A stretch of DNA of 25,451 nucleotides, taken from positions 1 through 25,451 of IMG/VR virus record IMGVR_UViG_3300034104_001635; one strand, written 5' to 3'. Position numbers and translations under genes: made by a program. Positions within the stretch are counted from its first letter, which is position 1, and each line of letters starts with the position of its first letter. Origin of the DNA: a virus. The notes below the pieces were generated by a model that worked only from the letters and a program-made list of their open reading frames with translations, had not been told where the DNA came from and ran no database searches. Positions 7,071 through 22,131 of this stretch are shown one piece after another.

Positions 7071-7733
7071 TCAGCTCCTGTTGTACTCACATTCTTTCAC
7101 TGCGCAGAACTTGCACAGCGGGCCTTGGACTGGGTTCCATACGCCGTTCTTCAGGGCCGCCTCAATGCGGGCCACATCTTGAGCGGGTTTCTCAATATAC
7201 GTGTTAGCCATTGCAGCGTGGTGCTCGGCGGCCACAAACTCTTTACTGACCACAAAGGCCAACGCGGACTTGACCCTAACTATGTTAGGGAACAAAGCAA
7301 AGATGCCCAACGCCACGAGGTCCAACTGCTTGGTATCCGCGTACCGGGCTGACTTGCTGGTCTTGTAATCCACAGAGTGGGCAAGTTTCTTCTCGTGGTT
7401 AATCACAACTAGGTCGGCGATGCCGTGCCACCAGACATCGGACGCATCAAAGTCGCAAGCCTTGAGGTCCTTGGTCAAACCAAGTTTGAGTTCGCAGTAC
7501 TTTTCGCCTTCGATGGCTTTCAGATGGTTCAACGTGTCGCGCAAGTACGCGAACTTCTCAGGTACCGGAACACCGTCGCGGATGTATTCCTCGGCAGCGG
7601 TATGCACCGACTTGCCGTACAGCGTAGCTACCGTGTCCGACTCCTTGATGTCCTTGGCTACCTTGACGTGGTAGTACTTCTTCGGACACTGCTGGAACGT
7701 CTTGAGGCTACTAAAAGACCAGACGATACTCAC
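7071..7733 (-). CDS. PD-(D/E)XK nuclease, Cas4/RecB-like with predicted iron-sulfur cluster, 220 aa
   Basis: Exonuclease of the Cas4/AddB-like family. The metal site is visible as H44 (G-K-S-V-H), D107 (G-I-A-D-L-V-V), D122 and K124 (V-D-Y-K-T-S) and Q136. Four cysteines at C16, C207, C210 and C215 match the [4Fe-4S] arrangement of this family, one at the N-terminus and three at the C-terminus. Cas4-like phage nucleases process double-stranded ends for recombination; there is no CRISPR array here, so a replication/recombination role is likely. The start is GTG in a GTGA overlap with the 75-aa gene. One copy of the 13-bp palindrome lies inside the gene at 7276-7288 and encodes N-I-V. Confidence 0.92.
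   Translation of the reverse strand: MSIVWSFSSLKTFQQCPKKYYHVKVAKDIKESDTVATLYGKSVHTAAEEYIRDGVPVPEKFAYLRDTLNHLKAIEGEKYCELKLGLTKDLKACDFDASDVWWHGIADLVVINHEKKLAHSVDYKTSKSARYADTKQLDLVALGIFALFPNIVRVKSALAFVVSKEFVAAEHHAAMANTYIEKPAQDVARIEAALKNGVWNPVQGPLCKFCAVKECEYNRS
7276..7288. repeat. 13-bp palindrome CTAAC-TAT-GTTAG (perfect), intragenic
   Basis: Lies inside the Cas4-like nuclease gene and is read there as N-I-V. It is the leftmost clear copy of the dispersed motif. Confidence 0.85.
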
Positions 7734-7957
7734 CGTTCACCCCGTTCCCGCGCGTCGCGGGCTTCACGCATTGCACGAACTGCGGTAAGCGTAAGCCTTG
7801 TTTCGGTAAGTGCAATGATCGCGGCATCGACGGCTTGGTCGTACTTGCCCTCCAGCATAAACTCATGCAGTTGTTTTAGCGCCCGCTCTGCCATCATGCA
7901 CGGGTACGCGTAGTCCACAACAGCTTCGCCTTCAACAATCGCCATAACTTTTCCCAT
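7730..7957 (-). CDS. Small helical protein of unknown function, 75 aa
   Basis: Sits between the DNA polymerase and the Cas4-like nuclease and overlaps both (26 bases with the polymerase end, GTGA with the nuclease start). A second possible ATG at 7943-7945 would give a protein four residues shorter; neither start has an ideal ribosome site. The body is one helical bundle-like run with A-E-R-A-L-K-Q-L-H-E-F-M-L-E-G-K-Y-D-Q-A and a very basic C-terminal end rich in Arg. Proteins of this type appear as uncharacterised genes in many phages. No function can be given. Confidence 0.72.
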   Translation of the reverse strand: MGKVMAIVEGEAVVDYAYPCMMAERALKQLHEFMLEGKYDQAVDAAIIALTETRLTLTAVRAMREARDARERGER

Positions 7958-9758
7958 ATCCTGACTCACAGTCCAAAGGTAGGTCCGTAGCCCATGTTGG
8001 GCAGACCCGCATACACGACTCCACGTACTCTTGTGCGTGGTCCACTTCTTCGATAGGTGCAATACATGCGACCGCGTCATGCACCGTCATCACCACTCGA
8101 TACTTTTTAGCGATGAGCAAAAGCTGCTCTCCGATAACAATACGGGCTAGGGCTTGGCATACATTTTCTACCACCTTGCCCCCATAAATCCGAGTGGGGA
8201 TCATCGCTCTCCCCCGCTTGGTGTCGTATAAGTACTCTGACTTTCCGGTTTCCGGGTTTTGCTCCACCCGCAAGTTTGTGTACTTAAGGTATAAGCCGTT
8301 GGGTAGTCGGATGCCCTTGCGACCTTCAACCTGCAGGAGGCCGCCACACCCAAATTCAGTGTACTGGTCGGCAATGATCGCGTCTAGGACTTGCCCAGCG
8401 TCTTTCCATAGTTTCGGTATCTTCGCGTACTTTTGGCGGTACGTATCGATAATACGTTTAGCTTCATCTATGTCAATATCTACTGCAAAGTTAGCAAGCT
8501 GTACTTGAAACTTCGCCGCCCCCATGCCGTAGCCACAGCCAAGAATCGTTGTCTTGCCCACGAACCGCTCGTCTTTGGAGATTACGTTTGCTGCCTTGCC
8601 GTAGATGCCAGACGCCATGATCCGGTAGACATCTGCGCCATCTTTAAATGCAGACACTAAATCGTCCTGCTCAGCTAGCCATGCCAGCGTACGGGCTTCG
8701 ATCTGGCTGGAGTCCGAGTCAATGATGTAGTGGTCGTCCGGTGCAAGAATCGCGTACTTGAGCAGTGAGGTGCGAGGAAGATTCTGGAGGTTGAGTTTGT
8801 CGTCCCCACCCCAGCGACCAGTGTGCGCTGCGTAATACCTAAGCGGCACAGGCAACGATCCTCGGCTTGCGATGCCAAGAAACCGCTCGGTGCGAGTTTC
8901 TTCGATGGTGGATTTAACTCCTAGTCGAGCAGCTACAAGCAACTGCACGCCGGGTTCTGAGTGATCCAACAAATCGCGGAATTCTTCGTCACTTTTGGAG
9001 AACGCGTAAGTCTGTTTGCCCGTAGCCGGACTGACCTTCATGGGGGGTACAACTCCGTAGAGTCTGAGCAAGTCGGCAAACTTTGGGTTGCTCATCAACA
9101 CGTCTTTATCAGACTCCGCCGCCTCCAGCAAGTCAGCCTTCTTCGCTTTAACTGTAGCCAGATGGGCCTCCAATACCTTCTTGTCTAGTTGTAGTACTGG
9201 GTCAGTAAACATGCGAACTGTAGCGTCGATCAGCAGGAACTCAACTGACGGAAACCCAGAGGACATACAGCCGAACAATTCAAATGTGAGAACCACATCG
9301 TTCTTGCAGTACTCGCCATAACGAGCCAACGCTTCGGAGTCAAAGTCCTCACGGCGCTTGTCAATCGCAACCTCCACCTCGTTGCCCTTTTCACCAATTG
9401 CATAGTGCGCGGACAACACCTTGAGGCTACCACCTACGTCAGTGCCGTGAAGAGCACGCCCCATGCTCAGCGTGTCGAGCCAGCCCTTGGGCTTGATGCC
9501 AAACACCCATGAAAGGATGGCCCCATCAAACGGGGCATTGTGAGCTAGCGCAAGGGAGTTGGCCCAGTCATAAGAGGCAAGGAACTGGTATGTAGCTATG
9601 GCATCGCCGCTAAACCACACCGGCTCCCCGTCATCTTCTTGCACGGCCACACCGATCACTTCAAACCGGGGGTCACGGATGTACTCCTCGGTTGTCATTT
9701 TCGTCAAAGAAAACTCCCTGCTATAGAAAGTTTCAAAATCAATCGTGAGAATTTTCAC
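7932..9758 (-). CDS. Family A DNA polymerase with 3'-5' exonuclease domain, 608 aa
   Basis: Phage replicative polymerase. The N-terminal exonuclease shows D7-F-E9 and H-N-A-P-F-D at about 73-78. The polymerase core has the T-G-R-W motif near 313, motif A D-S-S-Q-I-E with the catalytic Asp at 349, motif B R398-x3-K402-x3-L406-x3-Y410-G, and motif C V-H-D-A with Asp 561. The residue equal to E. coli Phe762 is Leu406, and the usual motif C H-D-E reads H-D-A. It lacks a 5' nuclease domain, as is typical for phage enzymes of about 600 aa. The start is GTG in a GTGA overlap with the VRR-NUC gene. It heads the central replication operon with the nucleases and the helicase. Confidence 0.97.
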   Translation of the reverse strand: MKILTIDFETFYSREFSLTKMTTEEYIRDPRFEVIGVAVQEDDGEPVWFSGDAIATYQFLASYDWANSLALAHNAPFDGAILSWVFGIKPKGWLDTLSMGRALHGTDVGGSLKVLSAHYAIGEKGNEVEVAIDKRREDFDSEALARYGEYCKNDVVLTFELFGCMSSGFPSVEFLLIDATVRMFTDPVLQLDKKVLEAHLATVKAKKADLLEAAESDKDVLMSNPKFADLLRLYGVVPPMKVSPATGKQTYAFSKSDEEFRDLLDHSEPGVQLLVAARLGVKSTIEETRTERFLGIASRGSLPVPLRYYAAHTGRWGGDDKLNLQNLPRTSLLKYAILAPDDHYIIDSDSSQIEARTLAWLAEQDDLVSAFKDGADVYRIMASGIYGKAANVISKDERFVGKTTILGCGYGMGAAKFQVQLANFAVDIDIDEAKRIIDTYRQKYAKIPKLWKDAGQVLDAIIADQYTEFGCGGLLQVEGRKGIRLPNGLYLKYTNLRVEQNPETGKSEYLYDTKRGRAMIPTRIYGGKVVENVCQALARIVIGEQLLLIAKKYRVVMTVHDAVACIAPIEEVDHAQEYVESCMRVCPTWATDLPLDCESGYGKSYGDC

Positions 9759-10060
9759 TTTATGGCCTTAATCAGGTAGATCAACTCGGCAAAGTAGCCG
9801 TTGTCTAGCTCAGTTTCACGTATGACCAGAGCCATGCCGTTCGATTCTCTGATCTCACGCATATTCTTTTCTTGTAACGCGGTTGTCTCGCCCTTACCAG
9901 CCTTGGCCTCGATCGCCACGAACTTGCCGTTCACGCAGCACAGGAAGTCAGGCACGCCGCTGTTGCCGTAGCCGGTGCCAATCGGCATAGCGTAGTACAC
10001 GCTGTTGTCCTTAAGTATCTTTTTGATCTTGGCTTTAACCTTGGACTCGGGCGTAGCCAT
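9755..10060 (-). CDS. VRR-NUC domain nuclease, 101 aa
   Basis: A stand-alone VRR-NUC fold of the PD-(D/E)XK superfamily. Visible residues are G-V-P-D at 35-38, then F-V-A-I-E-A-K at 47-53, giving the D...E-x-K metal site, followed by T-A-L-Q-E-K. Length is typical for the viral single-domain form, which cuts branched or flap DNA. The ATG at 10058-10060 overlaps the preceding TAA stop as TAATG; an in-frame GTG four codons earlier is possible. It sits directly before the polymerase gene, consistent with a role in processing replication or recombination intermediates. Confidence 0.92.
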   Translation of the reverse strand: MATPESKVKAKIKKILKDNSVYYAMPIGTGYGNSGVPDFLCCVNGKFVAIEAKAGKGETTALQEKNMREIRESNGMALVIRETELDNGYFAELIYLIKAIK

Positions 10061-10383
10061 TACTTCTGCCACCCGATGAAAGTGGTGCCCTTGTGTTGGA
10101 GAATCGCCAAGATTGGCTTCTCGTCACACCCTTCGCACCAGAAGTGCACCTGCATACCATCGCGCTGACTGCTCGGGTTGTTTGTCTGTTCGTTGGGCAC
10201 GTTGGCAGAGGTGATCGTGCCGTTATCCATCACATGGGTAACTCGAACTTTTTCTGCATCTCCGTAGCGATTAAACACTGTCACGTCTGACTGGTGCAGG
10301 TTGTTGTGCCCACAGTACGGGCACTCATCCAGCCAATCGCCGCTGCTAATTTTCAAAGGGATCAAAAAGGTACCGTCACTCAT
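10060..10383 (-). CDS. Zinc-ribbon protein, 107 aa
   Basis: First gene after the promoter at 10405-10432. Two Cys pairs, C21-x2-C24 and C83-x2-C86, bracket a beta-rich middle with R-V-T-H-V-M-D-N-G, the pattern of a zinc ribbon. No catalytic motif is present. The ribosome site is weak (GGAGTAGTT before ATG). Its stop overlaps the start of the VRR-NUC gene. It may be a small DNA- or protein-binding factor of the replication operon; the exact role is unknown. Confidence 0.8.
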   Translation of the reverse strand: MSDGTFLIPLKISSGDWLDECPYCGHNNLHQSDVTVFNRYGDAEKVRVTHVMDNGTITSANVPNEQTNNPSSQRDGMQVHFWCEGCDEKPILAILQHKGTTFIGWQK

Positions 10384-10404
10384 AACTACTCCAGTGTTTC
10401 AGAC

Positions 10405-10432
10405 ATCCTACCACAACTTTTTACATTGTCAA
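10405..10432 (-). promoter_or_regulatory. Sigma70-type promoter for the polymerase-nuclease-helicase operon
   Basis: TTGACA (10427-10432) lies 16 bases from TAGGAT (10405-10410) on the minus strand, with TGTAAAAAG and TGTGG in the spacer as in other promoters of this phage. A perfect copy of the 13-bp palindrome (10436-10448) lies three bases upstream of the -35 box, an activator-like or blocking operator position. The leader is only about 15 bases. Confidence 0.82.
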
Positions 10433-10435
10433 CCA

Positions 10436-10448
10436 CTAACATTGTTAG
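10436..10448. repeat. 13-bp palindrome CTAAC-ATT-GTTAG (perfect), next to promoter
   Basis: Lies in the 115-bp gap between the DUF3310 and zinc-ribbon genes, just upstream of the -35 box of the 10405-10432 promoter. Confidence 0.88.
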
Positions 10449-10498
10449 GTGGGGGTACTCGCTGCACTGTCTCCAGCATCCGCTTTCCCCCCGAAAAA

Positions 10499-10957
10499 TT
10501 AGCCCTGAGCGATCTCGCGGTCAAGGTACCACTTGGCCTTCTTGAGGTTCTCCAAGCGCTCGCCTTTGAGGTCTGCACGGGTGATGTACTTCACCACATT
10601 GCCGAGGTGATAGTTCAGCTTCTTGGCCTCGATGAAGTCGATGGTCTCGATACCACCCGCCTTGTAGTGCGCGGGATTGATCATGTCGTTGATTGACGTG
10701 CCTGAAGAAACTACCGCAACGGTCTTCCACTCCTCAGCGGGTGCGGGGGGCACGGTCTCCGAGCTCTGCATACGAATCTTTGGTGTCCCATCGGGGTGCC
10801 TGAACTTGCGAGTAGCTTCCGCTTTCTTCATCTGTGAGCGGATCACGTACACGTACGCTAGGCTAGCCTTAAACTTTGCTGCCACGTCGGCAGGTTTCGC
10901 GTTGGGGTGGGTCATCATGTGCGCACGAATTTTTGCCGCGTTTGATTTTTTAGCCAT
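10499..10957 (-). CDS. HTH-like domain fused to DUF3310, 152 aa
   Basis: The C-terminal 60 residues (93-150) match the phage DUF3310 family: N-P-A-H-Y-K-A-G-G-I-E-T-I-D-F-I-E, then N-V-V-K-Y-I-T-R, then L-E-N-L-K-K-A-K-W-Y-L. This small domain is often labelled nucleotide kinase-like, but its activity is not established. The first 45 residues are a separate basic helical domain (H-P-N-A-K-P-A-D-V-A-A-K-F-K-A-S-L-A-Y-V-Y) that looks like a helix-turn-helix, joined by a flexible linker. The ATG at 10955-10957 has AAGGAG upstream; a longer in-frame start lacks one. Confidence 0.88.
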   Translation of the reverse strand: MAKKSNAAKIRAHMMTHPNAKPADVAAKFKASLAYVYVIRSQMKKAEATRKFRHPDGTPKIRMQSSETVPPAPAEEWKTVAVVSSGTSINDMINPAHYKAGGIETIDFIEAKKLNYHLGNVVKYITRADLKGERLENLKKAKWYLDREIAQG

Positions 10958-10958
10958 A

Positions 10959-11162
10959 TCAATTCTCCTTGGTATCAAGTTGTGTTTCCGCATACGCTAC
11001 TAGGACTTCGCGCATAGCTTCCTGTTTGTTGTGCATTTGATTGAAGTACTCCATCACATGCCGGGGTAGGCGTATGCTGGTGCACAGTAGTGCGGGCTTT
11101 TTGCCCAGACCGCGCCCTTTACGTTTTGTTGGGGGCTTCAGTTCTTCAATTCCGGTTGTCAT
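10959..11162 (-). CDS. Ribbon-helix-helix-like DNA-binding protein, 67 aa
   Basis: After a basic N-terminus (K-R-K-G-R-G-L-G-K-K) comes a strand-helix-helix pattern: L-L-C-T-S-I-R-L-P-R-H-V-M-E-Y-F, then K-Q-E-A-M-R-E-V-L-V-A-Y. This fits an Arc/CopG-like fold and resembles the DNA-binding part of BrnA-type antitoxins, but no toxin partner lies beside it. Dimeric RHH proteins bind short palindromes, so it is a candidate reader of the 13-bp motif. The ATG overlaps the stop of the 50-aa gene upstream (ATGA); GAGGAG lies eleven bases away inside that gene. Confidence 0.75.
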   Translation of the reverse strand: MTTGIEELKPPTKRKGRGLGKKPALLCTSIRLPRHVMEYFNQMHNKQEAMREVLVAYAETQLDTKEN

Positions 11163-11311: not shown

Positions 11312-11325
11312 GCGTTCTTCTCCTT
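11308..11325 (-). repeat. 18-bp junction repeat, copy 1
   Basis: Identical to 12853-12870 (plus-strand TCATGCGTTCTTCTCCTT). It encodes the last residues of one gene, the ribosome site and the ATGA overlap to the next gene. A diverged copy starts at 12626. Confidence 0.8.
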
Positions 11326-12629: not shown

Positions 12630-12856
12630 GTGTTCTCTCCTCTTGCCCGGATGAGGGCGGCTTTGCTTCGGACATATGCAATCGCTGTGCTTGGCTCCAT
12701 CTCTCGGGCCATATCATCAGCCATCTCATCAAGAACCCTCGCACACGCCTCGCGCTCGGCTGCGGCGACAAGGGCGGCGAAGCGTTCAAGGAATTCAGGC
12801 GTAGCGTCAAAGCCGCCAGCTTGCCGGGTAAAGTTTTCAACGTCCTCGCGGGTCAT
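12626..12856 (-). CDS. Helical protein of unknown function, 76 aa
   Basis: Ala/Glu/Arg-rich, with F-A-A-L-V-A-A-A-E-R-E-A-C-A-R-V-L-D-E-M-A. This helical cassette recurs as a small module in many phage hypothetical proteins. The ATG at 12854-12856 follows AAGGAG closely and overlaps the stop of the upstream 167-aa gene as ATGA; longer in-frame starts lie inside that gene. Its own stop overlaps the zinc-knuckle gene. Function unknown. Confidence 0.78.
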   Translation of the reverse strand: MTREDVENFTRQAGGFDATPEFLERFAALVAAAEREACARVLDEMADDMAREMEPSTAIAYVRSKAALIRARGENT

Positions 12857-13457: not shown

Positions 13458-13675
13458 CTCACCCCCAGCGCAGACAGCAGGAACACAATAAGAACTACAC
13501 AAACACAGTACAAAACAAACCGCACCGTGTCTTCGAACGTAAACGCCGGAGAACCGATCAACAGGTCTTGCACGAACTTCTCCTCGTGTGTGTAGTCGGA
13601 GCGCAGCGGTGGCTCGTAACGCCCACCAATCCTAATGCCTGTCTTCGTGGTGTAGGGTGGAATCTTCTCTAACAT
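13454..13675 (-). CDS. Small C-terminal-anchored membrane protein, 73 aa
   Basis: The soluble front (Y-T-T-K-T-G-I-R-I-G-G-R-Y-E-P-P, then acidic helices) ends in one clear transmembrane helix at about 50-71 (V-R-F-V-L-Y-C-V-C-V-V-L-I-V-F-L-L-S-A-L). This start is chosen because GGAG sits seven bases upstream of the ATG at 13673-13675, and because the start codon lies inside a perfect copy of the 13-bp palindrome (13669-13681), as in two other genes. A longer in-frame start lies in the preceding gene. The stop overlaps the 34-aa membrane gene. Function unknown. Confidence 0.78.
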   Translation of the reverse strand: MLEKIPPYTTKTGIRIGGRYEPPLRSDYTHEEKFVQDLLIGSPAFTFEDTVRFVLYCVCVVLIVFLLSALGVR

Positions 13676-13681
13676 AGTTAG
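13669..13681. repeat. 13-bp palindrome CTAAC-ATA-GTTAG (perfect), over a start codon
   Basis: On the minus strand it reads CTAACTATGTTAG, where ATG is the start codon of the 73-aa membrane protein and GGAG lies directly upstream. Confidence 0.88.
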
Positions 13682-14581: not shown

Positions 14582-15433
14582 TTACCATTGAAACTTCTTG
14601 AGGATGTCGTCCACCTTGGACTTCACACCCATGCGAGCGGTCGAGTCTTCCTTGATGCTCTCAAGGTCTGCCCCTAACATAGTTAGCTCTAGCTGTTTGC
14701 GTGCCTCTTCCAGCTTGGGGTCGTTGGTGATGTTCAGCTTAGTCAGCAATTGGCACAGCTCCAGCGGGTTGCTGATAAGTGAGTCGTGGTAGCGTCGCTT
14801 GTCCTCGCCATCCATGTCGGTCAGTTTCTTCGAGATGGTTGTCAGCTCGGTGTGCAAACGATCCCACGGCTCCCGGCATGCTTCGGCTAGCTTTTGCGTC
14901 TGCTGTTCTTCAAACTCCACCACCAGTTCCTTGAGGTCATCGGCGGGCACGTCGAGGCGGAAGTCCCCGGCCTCGGGCACAGGCTTGACTGAGCGACGAA
15001 ACCCAAACTTCATACGCACATCCTCGATGGGCGGGTAGTCGTCGGCCTTGTACATACTCTGCAACGCAACCGGGGCCTCGGCCACCAGACGTGGGTACTC
15101 GATGTAGAAGTTATCGCACAGCATGTTGAACGTCTGCTCGTGCGCATTCATTGTGGTCTTGTAGTCCATGAACAACCGGGTTGGCAATAAGCGTTCACCC
15201 TTATCAGCCCACGGCAGCGTGTGCTGGTTGTGATACAGGCGTACTCGGGCCGCGAACTTCTCGATGTCTTTGCGTAGCGACGTACCTGCAAACAGGTTCT
15301 TCTTGGTCTGCGATGCGCCATGCACTGCACCTGCGTCGGCATTGACCTTGTCGGTCACCTCCCGGTCGATCTTGGACGCGGGCCACACGCTGATGTTCAG
15401 TTCCACTAACACTGCTGATGCGCTGATACTCAT
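14582..15433 (-). CDS. DUF3150 family protein, 283 aa
   Basis: Recognised by its family-typical opening, S-I-S-A-S-A-V-L-V-E-L-N-I-S-V-W-P-A, and by later landmarks: L-Y-H-N-Q-H-T-L-P-W (about 66-75), G-E-R-L-L-P-T-R-L-F-M-D-Y-K, P-V-P-E-A-G-D-F-R-L-D-V, and D-S-L-I-S-N-P-L-E-L-C. DUF3150 proteins are helical and found in phages beside CobS/MoxR ATPases and CobT/VWA proteins, as here. The biochemical role is not known; a substrate or adaptor for the ATPase is a reasonable inference. GGAG precedes the ATG. A palindrome copy at 14674-14686 lies inside the gene and encodes L-T-M-L. Confidence 0.88.
   Translation of the reverse strand: MSISASAVLVELNISVWPASKIDREVTDKVNADAGAVHGASQTKKNLFAGTSLRKDIEKFAARVRLYHNQHTLPWADKGERLLPTRLFMDYKTTMNAHEQTFNMLCDNFYIEYPRLVAEAPVALQSMYKADDYPPIEDVRMKFGFRRSVKPVPEAGDFRLDVPADDLKELVVEFEEQQTQKLAEACREPWDRLHTELTTISKKLTDMDGEDKRRYHDSLISNPLELCQLLTKLNITNDPKLEEARKQLELTMLGADLESIKEDSTARMGVKSKVDDILKKFQW
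14674..14686. repeat. 13-bp palindrome CTAAC-ATA-GTTAG (perfect), intragenic
   Basis: Inside the DUF3150 gene, read as L-T-M-L. It is the only intragenic copy not in the N-x-V frame. Confidence 0.85.
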
Positions 15434-15434
15434 T

Positions 15435-15659
15435 TCAGTTCTCCGTCTTTATGTTTACTTCCATTGGCACATGCCTACCAGTAAGGCCAGCCATCGTTTG
15501 CAGGATTGCATGGTCGTCACTCTGCGCGGCAATCACCCATGATTGGTTGCGCCCTCGATTCTTGGCGATACCAACGAAGTCGTACCATCTGCGCTCGACA
15601 ACAATGAAGTTACCGAATTTGCCACGCAGGAGCATGTACTTGCTTTTCCGCTTCGCCAT
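15435..15659 (-). CDS. Small basic protein of unknown function, 74 aa
   Basis: A very basic N-terminus (A-K-R-K-S-K-Y-M-L-L-R-G-K-F) is followed by a strand-rich body with W-V-I-A-A-Q-S-D-D-H-A-I-L-Q. It sits between the 76-aa gene and the DUF3150 gene, one base before the DUF3150 start. The ribosome site is a weak GGGGG. No family is recognised; the basic strand-helix pattern could bind nucleic acid or an acidic partner. Confidence 0.75.
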   Translation of the reverse strand: MAKRKSKYMLLRGKFGNFIVVERRWYDFVGIAKNRGRNQSWVIAAQSDDHAILQTMAGLTGRHVPMEVNIKTEN

Positions 15660-15668: not shown

Positions 15669-15681
15669 CTAACAAAGTTAC
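15669..15681. repeat. 13-bp palindrome CTAAC-AAA-GTTAC (one mismatch), over a stop codon
   Basis: Lies in the 18-base gap between two small genes; its right arm contains the TAA stop of the 76-aa gene. Confidence 0.7.
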
Positions 15682-15908: not shown

Positions 15909-15918
15909 GCTGCTCTCC

Positions 15919-17127
15919 TTAGTCTTTAATATGGATAGTCTTGCCATTGGTAGCAACCGCATCGCCGCCCCCAACCACACACCACAGAACTTCAGCGGGC
16001 CAGTCGTGCCCCCAATCATTGCCCACGCACCCATCGGTGAGCATGACCACGCACTCGGGCTTGATGTTCTTGTCGTTCAGATACTGCGACACACATGAGG
16101 GGGATGTACCGCCGCCACCGGCTGGCTTGGTCTGGCTAACAATGTTAGTCACGTCCGTGTACTCTTCGTGCGCAGCTACTACGCTGTCCCAATAGATCAA
16201 GTCAATCTGTTCAGGGCTGACCTCCTCGGCAATACCCTTGACCTCAGACAAGAAGTCCGATAACTCACGGATACCAATGGAGCCCGATGTGTCCACACCA
16301 ATGACAATCCGACCCACGCGCTCACCGATCATGCTGGGCATGTAGTACCCACTAGAGAGCATCCGACGATTGACACGCCGCCAGCTACTCTTGTCCTTGT
16401 TGCGGCACACGGACTTGACGAACTCACGCAGGACCTCCCGCCAGTCCACCTTGGGCTGCATCAATTCTTCAAGCTCACGCCCCATGCTGCCCGCCCCCTT
16501 ACCCGCAATCTTTTGATGCGCCATGAGTCCTTGACGGATCGCTTGGTCTACCTCGCGCTCGAGCGTTTCTTTCTCCTCCTCGCTCATGTTCTTGGCACCA
16601 TCCCAGTCGTGGTCGTCCAACCCACCGTCACCACCCTCGTTGCCACTACCACCTTCGTCACCGGGCTCTTGCTCCTGCTTGAGGATGTCGAACACCTGCT
16701 TGGCATTCATGCCGCGAAACTTCTCATTGATCAGACCCATCGGGTCGCCACGTCGAGGACCATCACGCCACACGGGCATCTGGATGGTGCGCCCCTGCGG
16801 GTCGAGGTCCTTGAGTCCGAGGTTGATCACGTAGTCGCACGCCATGTTGGCGAGCTTGTGGTTCTCGTCGTGCAGCTTGCGCCACGTGGTCAGGTGCCGG
16901 TACATCTTGTGCCCACACTCGTGAGCTACTACGAACGCCAGCTCCTGCTCACGTAGCTCCTTGATGAACTTGCGCCCGTACCGCTCGTTGCGGCCATCGG
17001 TGCACGCGGTAGGTATCTTGTCATCGACACTAGTGCGGCCCACCATCATGATCCCCTGCAGCAGGGCGAACTTGGGGTCACGCATCAGGCTGATCTTGGC
17101 CTTCTGAAGTTTGCGTTCCTCTAACAT
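15919..17127 (-). CDS. Metallopeptidase-VWA protein (DUF2201/CobT-like), 402 aa
   Basis: Two domains. The N-terminal part has a zinc metallopeptidase signature H-E-C-G-H (69-73) in V-A-H-E-C-G-H-K-M-Y-R-H, as in DUF2201. An acidic Gly/Asp/Glu-rich linker follows (about 152-195). The C-terminal VWA-like domain has a MIDAS motif D279-T-S-G-S (D-x-S-x-S), a candidate Thr at 341 and D365 in M-L-T-D-G. Such proteins are partners of MoxR-type AAA+ ATPases, as CobT is of CobS. The start was set at the ATG of M-L-E-E-R, because GGAG lies upstream and the ATG is inside a palindrome copy (17121-17133). A perfect copy also lies within the gene at 16136-16148. Confidence 0.92.
   Translation of the reverse strand: MLEERKLQKAKISLMRDPKFALLQGIMMVGRTSVDDKIPTACTDGRNERYGRKFIKELREQELAFVVAHECGHKMYRHLTTWRKLHDENHKLANMACDYVINLGLKDLDPQGRTIQMPVWRDGPRRGDPMGLINEKFRGMNAKQVFDILKQEQEPGDEGGSGNEGGDGGLDDHDWDGAKNMSEEEKETLEREVDQAIRQGLMAHQKIAGKGAGSMGRELEELMQPKVDWREVLREFVKSVCRNKDKSSWRRVNRRMLSSGYYMPSMIGERVGRIVIGVDTSGSIGIRELSDFLSEVKGIAEEVSPEQIDLIYWDSVVAAHEEYTDVTNIVSQTKPAGGGGTSPSCVSQYLNDKNIKPECVVMLTDGCVGNDWGHDWPAEVLWCVVGGGDAVATNGKTIHIKD
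16136..16148. repeat. 13-bp palindrome CTAAC-AAT-GTTAG (perfect), intragenic
   Basis: Inside the metallopeptidase-VWA gene, read as N-I-V in T-N-I-V-S. Confidence 0.86.
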
Positions 17128-17133
17128 AGTTAT
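17121..17133. repeat. 13-bp palindrome CTAAC-ATA-GTTAT (one mismatch), over a start codon
   Basis: On the minus strand the sequence AAGGAGATAACTATGTTAG combines the ribosome site, the motif and the start codon of the VWA gene. Confidence 0.82.
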
Positions 17134-17137
17134 CTCC

Positions 17138-18202
17138 TTACAGTAAGTCTTGGTTCTTGGCAACCCAGTCGGCGAACGCCTTGCAACTGAACGCGATGCC
17201 TTGCTTGCTTGCAGTCTTGGCGATGTTGATAGCGAACACGGCTTGCCACTCAGGCTCGAACCGCTCGAGATATTGCATGAACGGCGCGATGGTGTGCTTG
17301 TCTACCCGGCTGATCGCACCGAACACCGTGATCGCACACGCACCGGGGCTTGTCGGTACCTTGGTGCTGTCGGGGTACTTGATCTGCTGCTCCCACGTAG
17401 GTAGCTGGTCGGCAAACTCGATGTACGCCTGCATATCACGCGCTGCTGCTTCACCTACTGCGCCAGACAGAGCGGCAATCACCGAGTCCGGGTCGTTGAG
17501 CTTGCGGGTCCTAACAATGTTAGAGGCGGTCTCGAGCGAGCGCGGCGATACAAACGAGGCTTGCGGCTTGCGCGGGTTGTAGATGTACGGGTTGTCACCC
17601 TGCGCCGCATCGGTGTAGCTTGCCAGAGCATGGGGAAACTGATTGACCCACGCACACACCTCGGGCTCGATGCCATGAGGCACCGCCCACTCAAGCCACT
17701 GCTCGGATGTGGGTTTGCTTATCGTCACCGACACCACGCGGTTCAAGCTGTGCGCCTTCAAGCTGTCGCCCACGCCGTCCGTGGTCAGGTTACCCGTCAT
17801 GAACACAACCGTATCGTTGAGTATGGGCAAGTCACCGAGGCGCGGGTTCGCCTTCTCGAGCATGGGGTGCAGCATGTTCTTGACCGGGTCGGCACCCTTA
17901 CTGAACTCATCGAGCATGATGACTAGGGGCTTACCGAGGTGCACCTTGAAGCGGGCATTCGGGTAGTAGCGCGTGGTCTTGGTTTCGTGGTCAATCACGG
18001 GCATCGCAATGTCGCCCAAGTCCATGTTCGGCACGTCGATGTATGCGTAGTCATACCCTAGTTGGGATGCGATTGACTCCAGCAGGGAGGACTTGCCGAT
18101 ACCCGGCTCACCCCGCAGCATGAAGCGGGTGGTGGGGTTGGTGACAATCAGCGTTGCCGCTTGCTTGAGCGTGATGCTCTTGCCGAATTGAATCTCTGCC
18201 AT
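17138..18202 (-). CDS. MoxR/CobS-type AAA+ ATPase, 354 aa
   Basis: A single AAA+ domain. Walker A is G-E-P-G-I-G-K-S-S (31-39), Walker B V-I-M-L-D-E (94-99), sensor 1 is T-G-N-L-T near 136-140, and a candidate arginine finger is R155 in S-L-N-R. MoxR-type enzymes are hexameric remodellers that work with VWA proteins; the VWA/metallopeptidase gene begins 11 bases downstream. It is the first gene after the promoter at 18287-18315 and has GAGGAG before ATG. The 85-base leader contains a perfect palindrome copy. A copy inside the gene (17511-17523) encodes N-I-V. The role in the phage is unknown; remodelling of a host or phage complex is likely. Confidence 0.93.
   Translation of the reverse strand: MAEIQFGKSITLKQAATLIVTNPTTRFMLRGEPGIGKSSLLESIASQLGYDYAYIDVPNMDLGDIAMPVIDHETKTTRYYPNARFKVHLGKPLVIMLDEFSKGADPVKNMLHPMLEKANPRLGDLPILNDTVVFMTGNLTTDGVGDSLKAHSLNRVVSVTISKPTSEQWLEWAVPHGIEPEVCAWVNQFPHALASYTDAAQGDNPYIYNPRKPQASFVSPRSLETASNIVRTRKLNDPDSVIAALSGAVGEAAARDMQAYIEFADQLPTWEQQIKYPDSTKVPTSPGACAITVFGAISRVDKHTIAPFMQYLERFEPEWQAVFAINIAKTASKQGIAFSCKAFADWVAKNQDLL
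17511..17523. repeat. 13-bp palindrome CTAAC-AAT-GTTAG (perfect), intragenic
   Basis: Inside the AAA+ ATPase gene, read as N-I-V in S-N-I-V-R. Confidence 0.86.
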
Positions 18203-18234
18203 GATCTAACTCCTCGAACTTTCTGATGGGATGC

Positions 18235-18247
18235 CTAACATAGTTAG
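18235..18247. repeat. 13-bp palindrome CTAAC-ATA-GTTAG (perfect, extends to 17 bp), in leader
   Basis: The symmetry extends to 18233-18249 (GCCTAAC-ATA-GTTAGGC). It lies about 35 bases after the predicted transcription start of the AAA+ operon, between promoter and gene. Confidence 0.9.
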
Positions 18248-18286
18248 GCGGGTTTGCTGGGAGGCATTTCCCCCCAACGAATCTAT

Positions 18287-18315
18287 ATTGTACCACAGTT
18301 AAGTGGTATTGTCAA
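18287..18315 (-). promoter_or_regulatory. Strong sigma70-type promoter for the MoxR-VWA operon
   Basis: TTGACA (18310-18315), a 17-base spacer and TACAAT (18287-18292) on the minus strand, with the shared TGTGGTACAATATA core. The -35 box includes the stop codon of the 73-aa gene upstream. The leader begins with G-runs and C-runs that could fold (about 18254-18277), followed by the palindrome. Confidence 0.88.
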
Positions 18316-18533: not shown

Positions 18534-19528
18534 TTGCTTTCTCCTTCGATGATCCAACCCAGATACGCGGGGTTGGGGGTTTTGTTGGCCGTCAACTCGA
18601 CGATCTTGAGTACTTCTCTTGCGCACGCCATCATCAAGACGCAGTCGAACTTGTTTAGCGCGGTCTCCACGTGACATATGAGCGGGGTGTCGAGCGCGGA
18701 GTGCTCTCTGTCTACCTTGTCTCCCAGCAGCAGGGCCAGCGTTGCCTTGTAGTAGTTGGCATGCCGCGCCTCCTCGGACTGCGTGGGGTCGATCAACTTG
18801 AGCAGCAGGGCTTCTTGCGCGGGGCGGTACTTGAGTACTTTGTCGCGGTTCCAGCTGTTGGTGGTAGCAGTACTGCCCAGTTGCGACAGACTGAGCACCG
18901 CCACGCCGTCGGCGAACCCACCAAGCACCGCGTCTACTTCTTCTTTGTACACGGCGATGGCGGCGTTGCCGCTTGTGCGTAGGCTGCCGTACTTTGTCTG
19001 TATGACCAGCTCGGAGCGCAGCTTGATGAAGTTCTCAAAGTAGGCCCGAAACCCTGCGTACCTGCGCCTAACATTGTTAGCGGCCTTGCGGTTCATGCAG
19101 TAGCCCATCACCGGCTTGGTGGCTTGGAACTTGAACGCGCTGGTTTCGCCGGGCACAAGCACGACTTCGCCCTTGCTGGGCATGAACTGCATCTGCCCTG
19201 CTACCTCCAGCTTGGTGTTACCCCGCCAACCACTAGCTCGCACCCCTCGCAAGACTGCGCTGATGAACTCGTGCGTAGAGTTGGTCACCCACGTGCCGTT
19301 CGTAAGCACGACTGTGCTGTCGGGCAGATAAGTAATCACCGGCGTCTGGTGCAGCACCAGCTCGACATTGCCCCCAACCATACGCAGCCAGTAGGTATGG
19401 TGGTCACGCCGCCGACCGAGCGGTCTACGGTTATCACTACCTCGAATTGGCTTGGTGTCTTCGTACTTCTTAACCGCCTCGGCATAGTTATCTAGGTAGG
19501 GCAGGTATCTTGCGCTTGCGTATCCCAT
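18530..19528 (-). CDS. Protein of unknown function, 332 aa
   Basis: The largest unidentified gene of the window. The N-terminal half is strand-rich, with N-V-E-L-V-L-H-Q-T-P-V-I-T-Y-L and S-T-V-V-L-T-N-G-T-W-V, preceded by a very basic G-R-R-R-D-H-H-T-Y-W. The centre has N-N-V-R-R-R-Y-A-G-F-R-A-Y-F, and the C-terminal part is helical with Cys/Met (C-V-L-M-M-A-C-A-R-E-V). There is no catalytic signature, signal peptide or transmembrane helix. A weak AAAGG site precedes the ATG. A perfect palindrome copy lies inside (19068-19080). Co-transcribed with small proteins; not assignable. Confidence 0.8.
   Translation of the reverse strand: MGYASARYLPYLDNYAEAVKKYEDTKPIRGSDNRRPLGRRRDHHTYWLRMVGGNVELVLHQTPVITYLPDSTVVLTNGTWVTNSTHEFISAVLRGVRASGWRGNTKLEVAGQMQFMPSKGEVVLVPGETSAFKFQATKPVMGYCMNRKAANNVRRRYAGFRAYFENFIKLRSELVIQTKYGSLRTSGNAAIAVYKEEVDAVLGGFADGVAVLSLSQLGSTATTNSWNRDKVLKYRPAQEALLLKLIDPTQSEEARHANYYKATLALLLGDKVDREHSALDTPLICHVETALNKFDCVLMMACAREVLKIVELTANKTPNPAYLGWIIEGESK
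19068..19080. repeat. 13-bp palindrome CTAAC-ATT-GTTAG (perfect), intragenic
   Basis: Inside the 332-aa gene, read as N-N-V. Confidence 0.86.
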
Positions 19529-19567
19529 GATTGCCTTTCGTTTGGTTGTATATACTATCTTCGTGAG

Positions 19568-19729
19568 CTAGCTCATATTGCGCAGAGCGTATGCTTTGAT
19601 ACGCTTTAGCGTTGGGAACCTAGCTACAAACTTCTGTTTCGCCGCCGTCATTGACTTGGCCTCGAATGTCTCGCACATCCAGCAGCCGAACCGATTAGAA
19701 AACCCGGTTACGTAATACCTGCATAACAT
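19568..19729 (-). CDS. Small basic protein of unknown function, 53 aa
   Basis: A short gene supported by AGGAGCTAACAATG at its start: a strong ribosome site, a palindrome copy and the start codon together, as in two larger genes. The upstream TAA stop lies two bases before its ATG. The protein is basic, with aromatic residues near the front (C-R-Y-Y-V-T-G-F), a C-W-M-C pair, and a helix ending in F-P-T-L-K-R-I-K-A-Y-A-L-R. The two CxxC-like residues alone are not a zinc site. Function unknown. Confidence 0.72.
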   Translation of the reverse strand: MLCRYYVTGFSNRFGCWMCETFEAKSMTAAKQKFVARFPTLKRIKAYALRNMS

Positions 19730-19735
19730 TGTTAG
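19723..19735. repeat. 13-bp palindrome ATAAC-ATT-GTTAG (one mismatch), over a stop/start junction
   Basis: Covers both the TAA stop of the 55-aa gene (19732-19734) and the ATG of the 53-aa gene (19727-19729). Confidence 0.82.
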
Positions 19736-19899
19736 CTCCTACTGAAGTTGTCCAGTTGCTTGTCGTACTCGGCACGCTCGTACTCCTCTAGCAGTTGCTG
19801 ATCTCGCGCGGCGTCGTTTTGCTCCTCGGCGTAGTAGGAGATGATCCCCTCGGCCTCCTCCCACGTGTAGCCCTCGTCGATTAGTTTGTATCGGTTCAT
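19732..19899 (-). CDS. Small acidic protein of unknown function, 55 aa
   Basis: Very acidic and helical, rich in Glu, Tyr and Gln, with Y-T-W-E-E-A-E-G-I-I-S-Y-Y-A-E-E-Q and Q-Q-L-L-E-E-Y-E-R-A-E-Y. The ATG at 19897-19899 overlaps the previous stop as ATGA. Its last codons provide the AGGAG ribosome site of the next gene, and its TAA lies in the palindrome. Small acidic proteins of phages often act as DNA mimics or host-protein binders; that is only a possibility here. Confidence 0.74.
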   Translation of the reverse strand: MNRYKLIDEGYTWEEAEGIISYYAEEQNDAARDQQLLEEYERAEYDKQLDNFSRS

Positions 19900-20069
19900 T
19901 TCGCACCCCCAATTTCTTCGATGGATTCAACATCCCACGATGCGTCATCGTTCACCGGGTCAAAGTTAACGCCCTTCCATGCAAGCTCCTCGGCTTGGCT
20001 TGCGCTCTCTGCCTCTACAGTCAGCACGATGAAACTCGTGCGGCGCAGCTCAACTTCATATGTCTTCAT
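19896..20069 (-). CDS. Small alpha/beta protein of unknown function, 57 aa
   Basis: The pattern strand (K-T-Y-E-V-E-L), strand (F-I-V-L-T-V-E-A-E-S), helix (A-S-Q-A-E-E-L-A-W-K-G) and an acidic C-terminal strand (W-D-V-E-S-I-E-E-I) is common in tiny phage proteins of the DpnD/PcfM-like shape. The ATG at 20067-20069 has GGAG about nine bases upstream; an in-frame ATG 14 codons earlier overlaps the neighbouring gene. A palindrome copy lies directly upstream. No function is known. Confidence 0.78.
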   Translation of the reverse strand: MKTYEVELRRTSFIVLTVEAESASQAEELAWKGVNFDPVNDDASWDVESIEEIGGAK

Positions 20070-20082
20070 TTCGTACTCTCCT

Positions 20083-20095
20083 ATAACATTGTTAG
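20083..20095. repeat. 13-bp palindrome ATAAC-ATT-GTTAG (one mismatch), intergenic
   Basis: In the 29-base gap between the 28-aa and 57-aa genes, just upstream of the GGAG site. Confidence 0.8.
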
Positions 20096-20098
20096 TCT

Positions 20099-20185
20099 TC
20101 AGGGTCTCCACACCAGCACATCGAGCATCACGACGATGATTGCCAGCAGGAACACAACGCGTTCTAGTTTCTCGGCTCTGGTCAT
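20099..20185 (-). CDS. Tiny single-pass membrane protein, 28 aa
   Basis: A very short gene with AGGAG seven bases before ATG (20183-20185) and only one base after the stop of the preceding gene. A charged N-terminus (T-R-A-E-K-L-E-R) is followed by a hydrophobic helix V-V-F-L-L-A-I-I-V-V-M-L-D-V-L-V-W, so a small inner-membrane peptide is predicted. One Asp lies within the helix. It resembles in layout the 34-aa membrane gene at 13353-13457. Not detectable by usual length cut-offs; support is ribosome site, spacing and composition. Confidence 0.65.
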   Translation of the reverse strand: MTRAEKLERVVFLLAIIVVMLDVLVWRP

Positions 20186-20186
20186 A

Positions 20187-20417
20187 TCAGCTCCTGATGT
20201 GCTTCTGGTTAGTCTGCTTGAGCGTTAGGTGTGCTGAAGTAGGCGTTACATACTGATAGTTGCCCTTGGTGTACTCCTGTATCACGCACCAGCTTGCACG
20301 CTCGGTACGGGCACGGTCTTCACCGCAGAACAGACAGGTGCGGTAGCCGAGGTAGGCACGCTCGGCGGGGAAGTCATCACCGCAGTCAACGCAGGTGCTC
20401 CAGTCAAGGTTGGTCAT
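20187..20417 (-). CDS. Small zinc-finger protein, 76 aa
   Basis: First gene after the promoter at 20496-20524. Two pairs, C9-x2-C12-G and C28-x2-C31-G, form a zinc finger of the general type seen in DksA/TraR-like and other phage zinc proteins; the acidic tip typical of DksA is not clear. The second half is polar, with a beta segment (Y-Q-Y-V-T-P-T-S-A-H-L-T-L). The ribosome site GAGGTGAT is an unusually long match to the 16S rRNA end, six bases before ATG. A palindrome copy sits in its leader, just upstream of that site. Confidence 0.8.
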   Translation of the reverse strand: MTNLDWSTCVDCGDDFPAERAYLGYRTCLFCGEDRARTERASWCVIQEYTKGNYQYVTPTSAHLTLKQTNQKHIRS

Positions 20418-20430
20418 TCTCTAATCACCT

Positions 20431-20443
20431 CTAACATTGTTAG
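20431..20443. repeat. 13-bp palindrome CTAAC-ATT-GTTAG (perfect), in leader
   Basis: Lies about 50 bases after the predicted start of transcription and overlaps the upstream edge of the GAGGTGAT ribosome site of the zinc-finger gene. Confidence 0.9.
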
Positions 20444-20495
20444 CCCGGGGTCGGTGGGCTGGGGGCCGTGGTGGGATTCTTCCCAGCCAACCTAT

Positions 20496-20524
20496 ATTAT
20501 ACCACAATGTTATACCATAGTCAA
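20496..20524 (-). promoter_or_regulatory. Strong sigma70-type promoter for the small-protein operon
   Basis: TTGACT (20519-20524), a 17-base spacer and a perfect TATAAT (20496-20501) on the minus strand, with the shared TGTGGTATAATATA core. The leader (about 70 bases) can fold: GGCTGGG near the 5' end pairs with CCCAGCC, and an inner GGGA pairs with TCCC. Confidence 0.9.
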
Positions 20525-20574
20525 GCGGATTGGTCTGGGCAGGGACAAAAGTTGGGGCGGCGCAGGGGGCAGGG

Positions 20575-20586
20575 TGTTACGAAATT
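20575..20586 (-). repeat. Iteron-like AATTTCGTAACA, copy 1 (minus orientation)
   Basis: Exact 12-base match, inverted, to the copy at 20812-20823. Confidence 0.55.
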
Positions 20587-20605
20587 GGAGGGGGTGATGT
20601 GATGA

Positions 20606-20617
20606 AATTTTGTAACG
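20606..20617 (+). repeat. Iteron-like AATTTTGTAACG, copy 2
   Basis: Differs from the consensus AATTTCGTAACA at two positions. Confidence 0.5.
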
Positions 20618-20811
20618 ATTGGCGTGAACGTAACACGGAAACGTAACATTGTAAGTTGTTGATTTAAAAGAAAAAAAAGGCAAAAACTGTGTGTAATGTT
20701 ATAAAGTTATAGTTTTTAGAACTATATGAATGAGGTTCCTAAAAATTGGTGTGGTACGAATTGCGCTTGGCGTCTTGTTTTGCCCTGCAGGATCGACCCC
20801 CATTTGTCTAA

Positions 20812-20823
20812 AATTTCGTAACA
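20812..20823 (+). repeat. Iteron-like AATTTCGTAACA, copy 3
   Basis: Reference copy. It is followed by ATATAACAAT, a partial half of the palindrome. Confidence 0.55.
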
Positions 20824-20881
20824 TATAACAATCTAGCATCCATGCGGGTTTGCGGCTACCACTGTATGTAACAACAGCCGA

Positions 20882-20893
20882 TTTTTCGTAACA
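20882..20893 (+). repeat. Iteron-like TTTTTCGTAACA, copy 4
   Basis: Ten of twelve bases match the consensus. Spaced 70 bases from copy 3. Confidence 0.5.
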
Positions 20894-20908
20894 ACCCGGC
20901 TAAGTTAT

Positions 20909-20921
20909 ATAACAATGTTAG
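20909..20921. repeat. 13-bp palindrome ATAAC-AAT-GTTAG (one mismatch), control region
   Basis: Its last base is the first base of direct-repeat copy 1. Confidence 0.8.
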
Positions 20922-20950
20922 GACTACCCCCGCATCGAGAACTGGTATTC
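20921..20950 (+). repeat. 30-bp direct repeat, copy 1
   Basis: Begins GGACTACCCCCGCATCGAG and is identical over 30 bases to 21068-21097. The copies are 147 bp apart, start to start, and each follows a palindrome copy closely. Confidence 0.9.
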
Positions 20951-20991
20951 CAAGGGTTTCCCCTAATTGCGCCCTAAACATATTCTTGTTA

Positions 20992-21009
20992 CTCTGCGTG
21001 AACGCAGAG
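20992..21009. repeat. Perfect 8-bp inverted repeat with 2-base spacer
   Basis: CTCTGCGT-GA-ACGCAGAG, between the two direct-repeat copies. No T-run follows, so it is not a terminator; it could be a protein site or a cruciform. Confidence 0.7.
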
Positions 21010-21043
21010 CGGATGCTTAGTGTTTAGAACAAGTCAGCCCCCG

Positions 21044-21056
21044 CTAACCATGTTAG
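21044..21056. repeat. 13-bp palindrome CTAAC-CAT-GTTAG (perfect, extends to 15 bp), control region
   Basis: Symmetry includes the flanking G/C (21043-21057). It is 11 bases upstream of direct-repeat copy 2 and is the only copy with a C in the spacer. Confidence 0.86.
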
Positions 21057-21067
21057 CCCAACCATTG

Positions 21068-21097
21068 GGACTACCCCCGCATCGAGAACTGGTATTC
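21068..21097 (+). repeat. 30-bp direct repeat, copy 2
   Basis: Identical to 20921-20950. Confidence 0.9.
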
Positions 21098-21133
21098 GCC
21101 AAAAATTTCCGGTTCACGCGTAAACCCCAATCC

Positions 21134-21146
21134 ATAACATTGTTAG
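21134..21146. repeat. 13-bp palindrome ATAAC-ATT-GTTAG (one mismatch), beyond terminator
   Basis: Ten bases beyond the T-run of the terminator of the 166-aa gene. Confidence 0.78.
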
Positions 21147-21156
21147 GGGCAGACGC

Positions 21157-21179
21157 AAAAAAGCCCGCGCAAGGCGGGC
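21157..21179 (-). terminator. Rho-independent terminator of the 166-aa gene
   Basis: On the minus strand a 6-bp G/C stem GCCCGC/GCGGGC with a 5-base loop (21163-21179) is followed by six T residues. A second G/C hairpin lies at 21191-21208. It isolates the 166-aa gene as a single-gene transcript. Confidence 0.88.
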
Positions 21180-21215
21180 CGGGTTCGAGGCCCCGGGTTT
21201 CCCCGGGGCGGGTAA

Positions 21216-21716
21216 TTACTTAGTGATTGTGCTCACGTCAACCCCGAGGGCAGCGAGGGCAGACACGATACTGGTTTGAGCATTTTGCTGTTGCGTGCTC
21301 AAGCTTTCTTCGCGTTTGCAAGCTTTGTACAGTTTGATTAGATCATCGATCAAACGCAATTGCAGGGACTTGCGGGGCTTTGCACCATTGGACTCTTCTT
21401 CATCCGCAACCCCCTCCATGTATTCCCGTCCAGCATCACGTACGCGAGTCCACATCACCGAGGGGTTTGCGTGCCCTGCAGCCTTGAGAGTTGCGCGGAA
21501 TGCTTTCGCTTCCACTAGGACAGGCTTGTCACCCTCGATCAGGGAATTGTGTTCTACGTCATACCATGCATCGGGCAGGAACGCGCACAATGCAATTGCA
21601 TACTCTTTCGTCGCACCGTACTGACGTTTGAGAGCATCGGCTACAGCACCGCGAAGGGTAACAATGTTAGCAGGAGCGTTATCTTCAATAATGGGGGATG
21701 CAATGACTTTGGACAT
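21216..21716 (-). CDS. Protein of unknown function, 166 aa, own transcription unit
   Basis: Mostly helical. The front has A-V-A-D-A-L-K-R-Q-Y-G-A-T-K-E-Y-A-I-A-L, a middle with F-R-A-T-L-K-A-A-G-H-A-N-P-S-V-M-W-T-R-V-R, an acidic E-E-E-S-N-G linker, then L-Q-L-R-L-I-D-D-L-I-K-L-Y. It has its own promoter (21784-21812) and terminator (21157-21179), as expected for a highly expressed or separately controlled early gene, possibly a DNA-binding or origin-region protein. AAAGGT lies before the ATG. A palindrome copy at 21658-21670 encodes N-I-V. No family is recognised. Confidence 0.82.
   Translation of the reverse strand: MSKVIASPIIEDNAPANIVTLRGAVADALKRQYGATKEYAIALCAFLPDAWYDVEHNSLIEGDKPVLVEAKAFRATLKAAGHANPSVMWTRVRDAGREYMEGVADEEESNGAKPRKSLQLRLIDDLIKLYKACKREESLSTQQQNAQTSIVSALAALGVDVSTITK
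21658..21670. repeat. 13-bp palindrome GTAAC-AAT-GTTAG (one mismatch), intragenic
   Basis: Inside the 166-aa gene near its start, read as N-I-V. Confidence 0.8.
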
Positions 21717-21783
21717 AATCTAACCTTTCGAATGTATCTAACTATCTAACTATGCTACGGGAGGATTCCTGCAGCATGGGTAT

Positions 21784-21812
21784 ATTATACCACAAAATGA
21801 GACCATATGCAA
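21784..21812 (-). promoter_or_regulatory. Sigma70-type promoter for the 166-aa gene
   Basis: TTGCAT (21807-21812), a 17-base spacer and a perfect TATAAT (21784-21789) on the minus strand, with the shared TGTGGTATAATATA core. In the leader ATGCT (21775-21779) can pair with AGCAT around an inner AGGA/TCCT, and three TTAGAT repeats precede the gene. Confidence 0.86.
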
Positions 21813-22131
21813 TCTAGGCGTGAACAATAAATACAGGGGTATATGGGGTAACATAGTTAGCAGATACTCACAAACAGACCCCCCGGGCCCCATTTTTACA
21901 GCAAGGGGAGGTGGCTCCGCATACACACTAATCCACTCAAACGATTACGCGCCCCAAGTTTTACATAACTACGTGGTACACAAAGACCCCCTACCCCCTT
22001 GCGTTTTCCCCCAGACCACATTTATTTTTACTTCCCACAGAACACCCCCCGTCAACAATTTTTTTGCCAACCCCCCACCCCCATATATTTTTCTGTTACA
22101 TTCGGCGCATTCCCGAACTCTTTTCGGTGCC
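21813..22131. other. Noncoding divergence region upstream of the terminase genes
   Basis: About 320 bases between the leftward promoter and the terminase small subunit. The plus strand has five or more runs of five or six C residues between 21879 and 22081 and several T-runs. One palindrome copy is at its left end. No clear rightward sigma70 promoter was recognised. It may hold the rightward promoter of a different type or the packaging site. Confidence 0.5.
21848..21860. repeat. 13-bp palindrome GTAAC-ATA-GTTAG (one mismatch), divergence region
   Basis: The rightmost copy; none is found in the terminase and portal genes. Confidence 0.78.

Follow-up and report, generated by a model that had tools for sequence, protein, structure and literature searches.

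What reads the 18 copies of a short palindrome, CTAAC-N3-GTTAG, that lie scattered over the leftward early region of a 25.5-kb virus fragment from a freshwater bacteriophage (IMG/VR record IMGVR_UViG_3300034104_001635)? We compared this fragment, hereafter called the window (the whole stretch of 25,451 nucleotides), with about 150 related virus sequences. The comparison suggests that the palindromes are probably dispersed operators of a phage-encoded orphan protein of 166 amino acids, P166, which would shut off the leftward early genes as a road-block to RNA polymerase. Comparative sequence analysis supports the existence and conservation of the network, selection on its sites according to motif class, the tracking of the motif by P166 and the geometry of sites and promoters.

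The palindrome network and its conservation

All 18 positions given in the original prediction are exact, 10 of them perfect and 8 with one outer mismatch (Table 1), and the count greatly exceeds the chance expectation at up to one mismatch (mean 0.47, maximum 3 in 100 dinucleotide shuffles of the window). Variants of CTAAC-Nx-GTTAG with other spacer lengths (0-11) have zero copies in the window. Under the strict pattern, the relatives of about 62 kb carry 12-20 sites each, and the median site spacing varies by genome between 370 and 860 bp. The spacer had been described as nearly always A/T; it is mostly so, but the more exact core is TAACA-N-TGTTA, that is, six-base arms CTAACA/TGTTAG flanking one base. 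The inner pair is A..T in 136 of 159 sites of the genomes with this motif, and the central base of sites outside start codons (A in 56, T in 60) reveals no strand polarity. The increase in density toward 21 kb is confirmed, with 8 of the 18 sites falling within 19.7-21.9 kb. The reported absence of copies from both ends of the window holds for the first 7.2 kb and for the 3.3 kb of virion genes, although the latter segment is too short as a test; in five relatives of about 62 kb, however, 85 of 86 sites are confined to the leftward early arc, from -23 to -0.8 kb relative to TerL.

Several hundred relatives of the TerL protein of the window (22725-24245) are present in IMG/VR; among named phages the relatives are only distant (Pelagibacter phages HTVC023P and HTVC027P, the metagenome-assembled DSL-LC04 and Planktothrix phage Pag-Yong1). 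De novo counts of gapped palindromes identified one dominant palindrome per genome in most relatives with enough upstream sequence. The N3 class has the window motif, and the N4 class has CTAAC-N4-GTTAG (core TAACA-N2-TGTTA); further classes are CTAACGCGTTAG, CTCAC-N3-GTGAG and CGACA-N3-TGTCG. CTGACA-N2-TGTCAG was also detected as a dominant palindrome, with just three copies, and two sequences (G007 and L188) contain a mixture of N3 and N4 sites. No network of this sort was found in HTVC027P, HTVC023P, 023Pt_psg01 or DSL-LC04, and a literature search on the motif string gave no relevant match.

Positions of individual sites are conserved in the relatives. In 12 of 13 genomes, drawn from both classes and including the window, a site covers the start codon of the VWA-domain gene at the same place. 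Within the MoxR-type ATPase gene, the peptide SNIVR is encoded by TCT AAC ATT GTT AGG, and hence forms a palindrome, in every N3-class genome; the other classes largely retain the residues with different synonymous codons and lack the site, the exception being the mixed-class G007. Similarly, a site near codon 136 of a 283-aa gene occurs in N4-class phages only. Such class-specific use of synonymous codons points to selection that acts on the DNA, not on the protein, and depends on the motif class.

Near-consensus leftward promoters with an extended -10 element recur at matching places in the relatives. Downstream of the -10 element, a site begins at a distance of 25-85 nt in 31 of 36 extended -10 leftward promoters of the arc, and in none of the 36 does a site overlap the promoter. 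The equivalent place downstream of the promoter is occupied by the genome's own palindrome in three other classes (G023, G024 and G026). In addition, the promoters at 20496-20524 and 18287-18315 and their homologues share a TGTGGTATAATATA-like extended -10 element and a spacer with the half-site-like sequence TAACnTTGTGG.

P166 as the candidate reader of the palindromes

When the full gene sets of 31 genomes were clustered, P166 emerged as the family that co-occurs with the network. Its gene is the first leftward gene, adjoining the divergent TerS/TerL side, and lies at the dense end of the network. Among loci chosen by TerL alone, the network is present in all 26 that bear P166 and absent from 6 of the 9 that lack it. 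Of the 28 gene families common to N3- and N4-class phages, P166 is the only one split by motif class: its identity is 41% within classes versus 5% between them, a ratio of 8.2, the next-best family reaching 1.47. Correlation with P166 also holds among phages that are otherwise close. Among pairs whose TerL identity is 85% or more, the motif class agrees in 369 of 369 cases with a P166 identity of 45% or more, and in only 9% of 325 cases where P166 identity falls below 30%. The collection comprised 112 distinct P166 members. On trees of 80 distinct proteins, the motif class changes 5 times along the P166 tree versus 14 times along the TerL tree, on which shuffled class labels require at least 20 changes. 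P166 is thus likely the cognate reader of the palindromes. One phage (G003; L016/L247) has two P166 genes and a single motif class.

Examination of the P166 sequences revealed one position, residue 84, that follows the operator spacing: all 36 N3-class proteins have Asn there, and 40 of 42 N4-class proteins have Thr or Ser. The N4-like P166 proteins that serve N3 motifs (L206, L212, L224, L225 and L227) have Asn at this position and a shorter turn. Residue 84 starts a helix modelled at residues 85-100 (AF2 model, single chain), which we regard as a candidate recognition helix. A search of 84,980 bacterial and archaeal species, limited by the peptide patterns used, detected no P166.

Of the three binders proposed originally, the two compared across the relatives are not supported by these data. 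The family of the small DNA-binding protein encoded at 10959 ignores motif class (ratio 0.99), and this family and that of the protein at 3756 both occur in G010, which is nearly devoid of sites. The latter, an XRE-type helix-turn-helix (HTH) protein (3756-4007), is conserved in the phage family, G010 included.

Three P166-less loci nevertheless contain a network. In two of them (G024 and G026) the P166 locus is occupied by an unrelated protein of 215-236 aa, accompanied by CGACA-N3-TGTCG sites, and this pairing of a 215-aa orphan family (L285-L288 and G024) with the same palindrome recurs in L286 and L287. The third, G012, is a mosaic in which a different 169-aa orphan, P169, occupies the locus and the sites are limited to the distal part. 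P169 occupies this place in L279-L284 (G010, G012 and relatives), with two copies in G010, and the palindrome network in these genomes is partial or lost, a possible natural swap of the regulator. Homology to P166 was considered for both replacing proteins and dropped (hhalign probability 10% for P169 and 0.9% for the 215-aa family). A third operator in G010, AGGGTTAACCCT, was also considered. It is weakly enriched there (11 sites at two mismatches versus 0-4 in shuffles), some of its copies lie outside the arc, and four more are found in the arc of G022, which bears P166; the weak enrichment and the G022 copies led us to abandon it.

Proposed mechanism and alternative explanations

We propose that P166 binds each site, most likely as a homodimer, the predicted target in the class of the window being CTAACATTGTTAG. 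Bound about 25-85 nt past the -10 element, it would halt the polymerase after promoter escape, while the further copies, which lie at gene starts and at intervals of a few hundred bp, would stop leaked polymerases, including those from other promoters. Since the sites follow the -10 element at this distance and never overlap the promoter, direct competition for the promoter is not expected; a block to elongation is the simplest explanation, and the geometry fits stoperator-like blocking better than promoter occlusion. P166 probably also limits its own synthesis, as its gene is predicted to have a separate promoter and terminator, and the leader contains a degenerate site. The purpose would most likely be to turn off the leftward early genes as infection proceeds; P166 might in addition silence early genes in co-infecting phages that share the motif class. 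An integrase was found in 0 of 19 relatives, and resolvase, ParA and ParB in 0 of 13, most of them 60-66 kb in length; DSL-LC04 is predicted to be virulent (PMC10611076). Because none of these genes was found in near-complete relatives, nor P166 in the cellular genomes searched, an early shut-off switch in lytic phages appears likelier than prophage maintenance.

Several points weigh against this proposal. DNA binding, dimerisation, repression rather than activation and the timing are all inferred. P166 has no match in Pfam, PHROG or PDB, the best PDB sequence match being an XerC-like protein with a non-significant E-value of 0.1; its model has a pTM of 0.52, and fold searches with two models retrieved nothing. 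Neither sequence nor fold places P166 in a known DNA-binding family. The nominal binomial P of 2e-28 for the promoter-site association is indicative only and overstated, because related genomes were treated as independent. Downstream of the predicted P166 promoter of the window there is only the degenerate site. Roadblocks are usually most effective near the promoter, and the purpose of sites deep within genes is not obvious. Two P169 genomes (L281 and L284) retain TAACA-N-TGTTA sites; either P169 reads them too, or a P166 gene lies beyond the fragment, or the sites are remnants. Finally, these phages may achieve lysogeny by another route.

The sites that follow strong promoters within the initially transcribed region, where an antiterminator could load, together with the length of the early region, are what a positive elongation factor might require: P166 would load downstream of early promoters and join RNA polymerase as an antiterminator or activator, with further sites for reloading. 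We consider this unlikely, since directional loading is at odds with symmetric, unpolarised sites, near-consensus promoters scarcely need activation, and many sites are far within genes. Still less probable is a DNA-organising or partition array in which P166, bound at regular intervals, would mark phage DNA or draw the early arc together by bridging or compaction. Although the sites cover about 20 kb and in 11 of 16 genomes are more evenly spaced than random sites would be (mean coefficient of variation 0.58 versus about 0.9 expected), spacing in the window itself is irregular (1.0), the late arc is excluded, the sites are strongly associated with promoters and start codons, and the ParA and ParB genes typical of ParB-parS arrays were not found.

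The start-codon association itself could reflect a start-associated translation signal at the RNA level, for 46 of 239 sites hold a start codon with a Shine-Dalgarno sequence and another 36 have an ATG 18-28 nt after the motif start. About half of the sites are away from start codons, however, the intragenic ones are conserved as well, and compact genomes would give start- and promoter-proximal placement; an RNA hairpin was rejected because a loop of 1-3 nt is too small for stability, which leaves this reading highly improbable. Short palindromes are also typical of the recognition sites of methylases and restriction enzymes, or of a host protein, but here the motif class tracks one phage gene and not the remaining ones, closely related phages can differ in spacer length and in sequence, and the virion arc is nearly free of copies. 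That explanation appears the most remote of all, and the nucleoid, centromere and methylation alternatives raised originally gain little or no support.

Known systems and features of the window

The start-associated sequences of cluster K mycobacteriophages are short repeated motifs just ahead of start codons; they are asymmetric and not known to occur away from starts, whereas the sites described here are symmetric and also occur within genes and after promoters. A closer parallel is the stoperator system to which the original prediction had likened the network. Phage L5 and other cluster A phages have 20-30 dispersed 13-bp sites, many of them off promoters, that block elongation, and the site consensus and the repressor diverge jointly, resulting in immunity groups (PMC6550527, PMC9283540). 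The likeness extends to many dispersed short sites, to a consensus that co-varies with the candidate regulator and, by promoter geometry alone, to a block of elongation; the part of the comparison that stands comprises dispersed operators, a true palindrome, conserved positions and sites downstream of promoters, at gene starts and within genes. The network is not a strict L5-type stoperator system, because L5 sites are asymmetric, monomer-bound and must point with transcription (PMC9283540, PMC6550527). Moreover, L5 sites are genome-wide and those described here are restricted to the early arc; L5 phages are temperate with an integrase or parABS, none of which was found in the relatives (the window being a fragment); and the searches made revealed no similarity of P166 to the L5 repressor, which has an HTH plus a stoperator domain. 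As the asymmetry, the homologous repressor and the life-style features of L5 found no counterpart here, we do not class the network as an L5 member; we see it as a variant among dispersed-operator systems, whose candidate regulator apparently belongs to a new protein family.

In phage SP-beta, the dispersed 15-bp element SPBRE was predicted from sequence and its master repressor MrpR identified later (PMC10516654). SPBRE is intergenic and maintains lysogeny, unlike the sites described here, which are also intragenic in phages with no integrase found; MrpR, with about 320 residues, resembles tyrosine recombinases, and P166 is all-helical and about half that length. Freshwater Nostoc phages A-1 and N-1, which lack an integrase, contain 21-43 inter-ORF (open reading frame) repeated motifs for which a stoperator function was suggested (PMC4916379), but those motifs are described as asymmetric and no binding protein was named. 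The Kpn2I controller protein halts elongating RNA polymerase while bound to DNA (PMC6237814), although it governs a restriction-modification gene rather than a network of sites.

More tentatively, and with the balance somewhat against the full set of claims, P166 could represent a new family of DNA-binding regulators that acts chiefly through distributed road-blocks in strictly lytic phages for early shut-off and class-specific exclusion without lysogeny. The operator spacing would then have been switched repeatedly by 1 bp via changes around one residue, and unrelated proteins, such as the 215-aa family with CGACA-N3-TGTCG, would have taken over the locus and the role. Under the operator proposal as a whole, an orphan family without a Pfam, PHROG or solved relative gains a likely function, and an abundant uncultured group of freshwater phages becomes linked with a regulatory circuit that can be tested. 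Co-change of a regulator and tens of operators has long been hard to explain, because all sites must follow one protein, and the natural motif classes form a ready series for its study. If the phages are lytic, this would be stoperator-like silencing outside lysogeny.

Table 1. Palindromic sites, genes and predicted signals of the window
Feature	Coordinates	Strand	Context or basis
Perfect palindrome	7276..7288		Inside PD-(D/E)XK nuclease gene; absent at this place in compared relatives
Perfect palindrome	10436..10448		Upstream of leftward ORF 10060-10383
Perfect palindrome	13669..13681		Contains ATG (13675) of leftward ORF, preceded by GGAG
Perfect palindrome	14674..14686		Intragenic; homologous codons in 7 N3-class relatives
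One-mismatch palindrome	15669..15681		Upstream of leftward ORF 15435-15659
Perfect palindrome	16136..16148		Inside VWA-domain gene; homologous codons in relatives
One-mismatch palindrome	17121..17133		Contains start codon (17127) of VWA-domain gene
Perfect palindrome	17511..17523		Inside MoxR-type ATPase gene; synonymous-codon retention only in matching-class relatives
Perfect palindrome	18235..18247		About 40 nt downstream of -10 (promoter 18315-18287); upstream of ATPase gene
Perfect palindrome	19068..19080		Intragenic; homologous codons in relatives
One-mismatch palindrome	19723..19735		Contains ATG (19729) of leftward ORF
One-mismatch palindrome	20083..20095		Upstream of leftward start codon
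Perfect palindrome	20431..20443		About 54 nt downstream of -10 (promoter 20524-20496)
One-mismatch palindrome	20909..20921		Region apparently non-coding
Perfect palindrome	21044..21056		Region apparently non-coding
One-mismatch palindrome	21134..21146		Just past predicted P166 terminator
One-mismatch palindrome	21658..21670		Within 5' end of P166 gene
One-mismatch palindrome	21848..21860		Upstream of predicted P166 promoter
Degenerate palindrome (two mismatches)	21746..21758		P166 transcript leader; extra half-site adjoining
P166, orphan 166-aa all-helical protein, candidate cognate DNA-binding regulator	21216..21716	-	Comparative data, AF2 model
Predicted P166 promoter TTGCAT-17-TATAAT	21784..21812	-	Sequence match only
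Predicted terminator after P166	21162..21180	-	Sequence match only
Predicted strong leftward promoter TTGACT-17-TATAAT, extended -10	20496..20524	-	
Predicted strong leftward promoter TTGACA-17-TACAAT, extended -10	18287..18315	-	
VWA-like/DUF2201 gene, leftward early region	15919..17127	-	Start inside palindrome 17121
MoxR-type AAA ATPase gene, leftward early region	17138..18202	-	

Elsewhere in the window, a 43-bp segment without annotated features (12753-12795) matches a Manatee Spring phage (MW202710), otherwise unrelated, at 97.7% identity. The distant relative Pag-Yong1 (L162, OL906435) has an independent GGTTCAGNCTGAACC network at 8.8-47.6 kb, covering early and some late genes, with copies mostly about 20-30 nt ahead of start codons, and its first leftward gene (38932-39495) encodes a 187-aa orphan.

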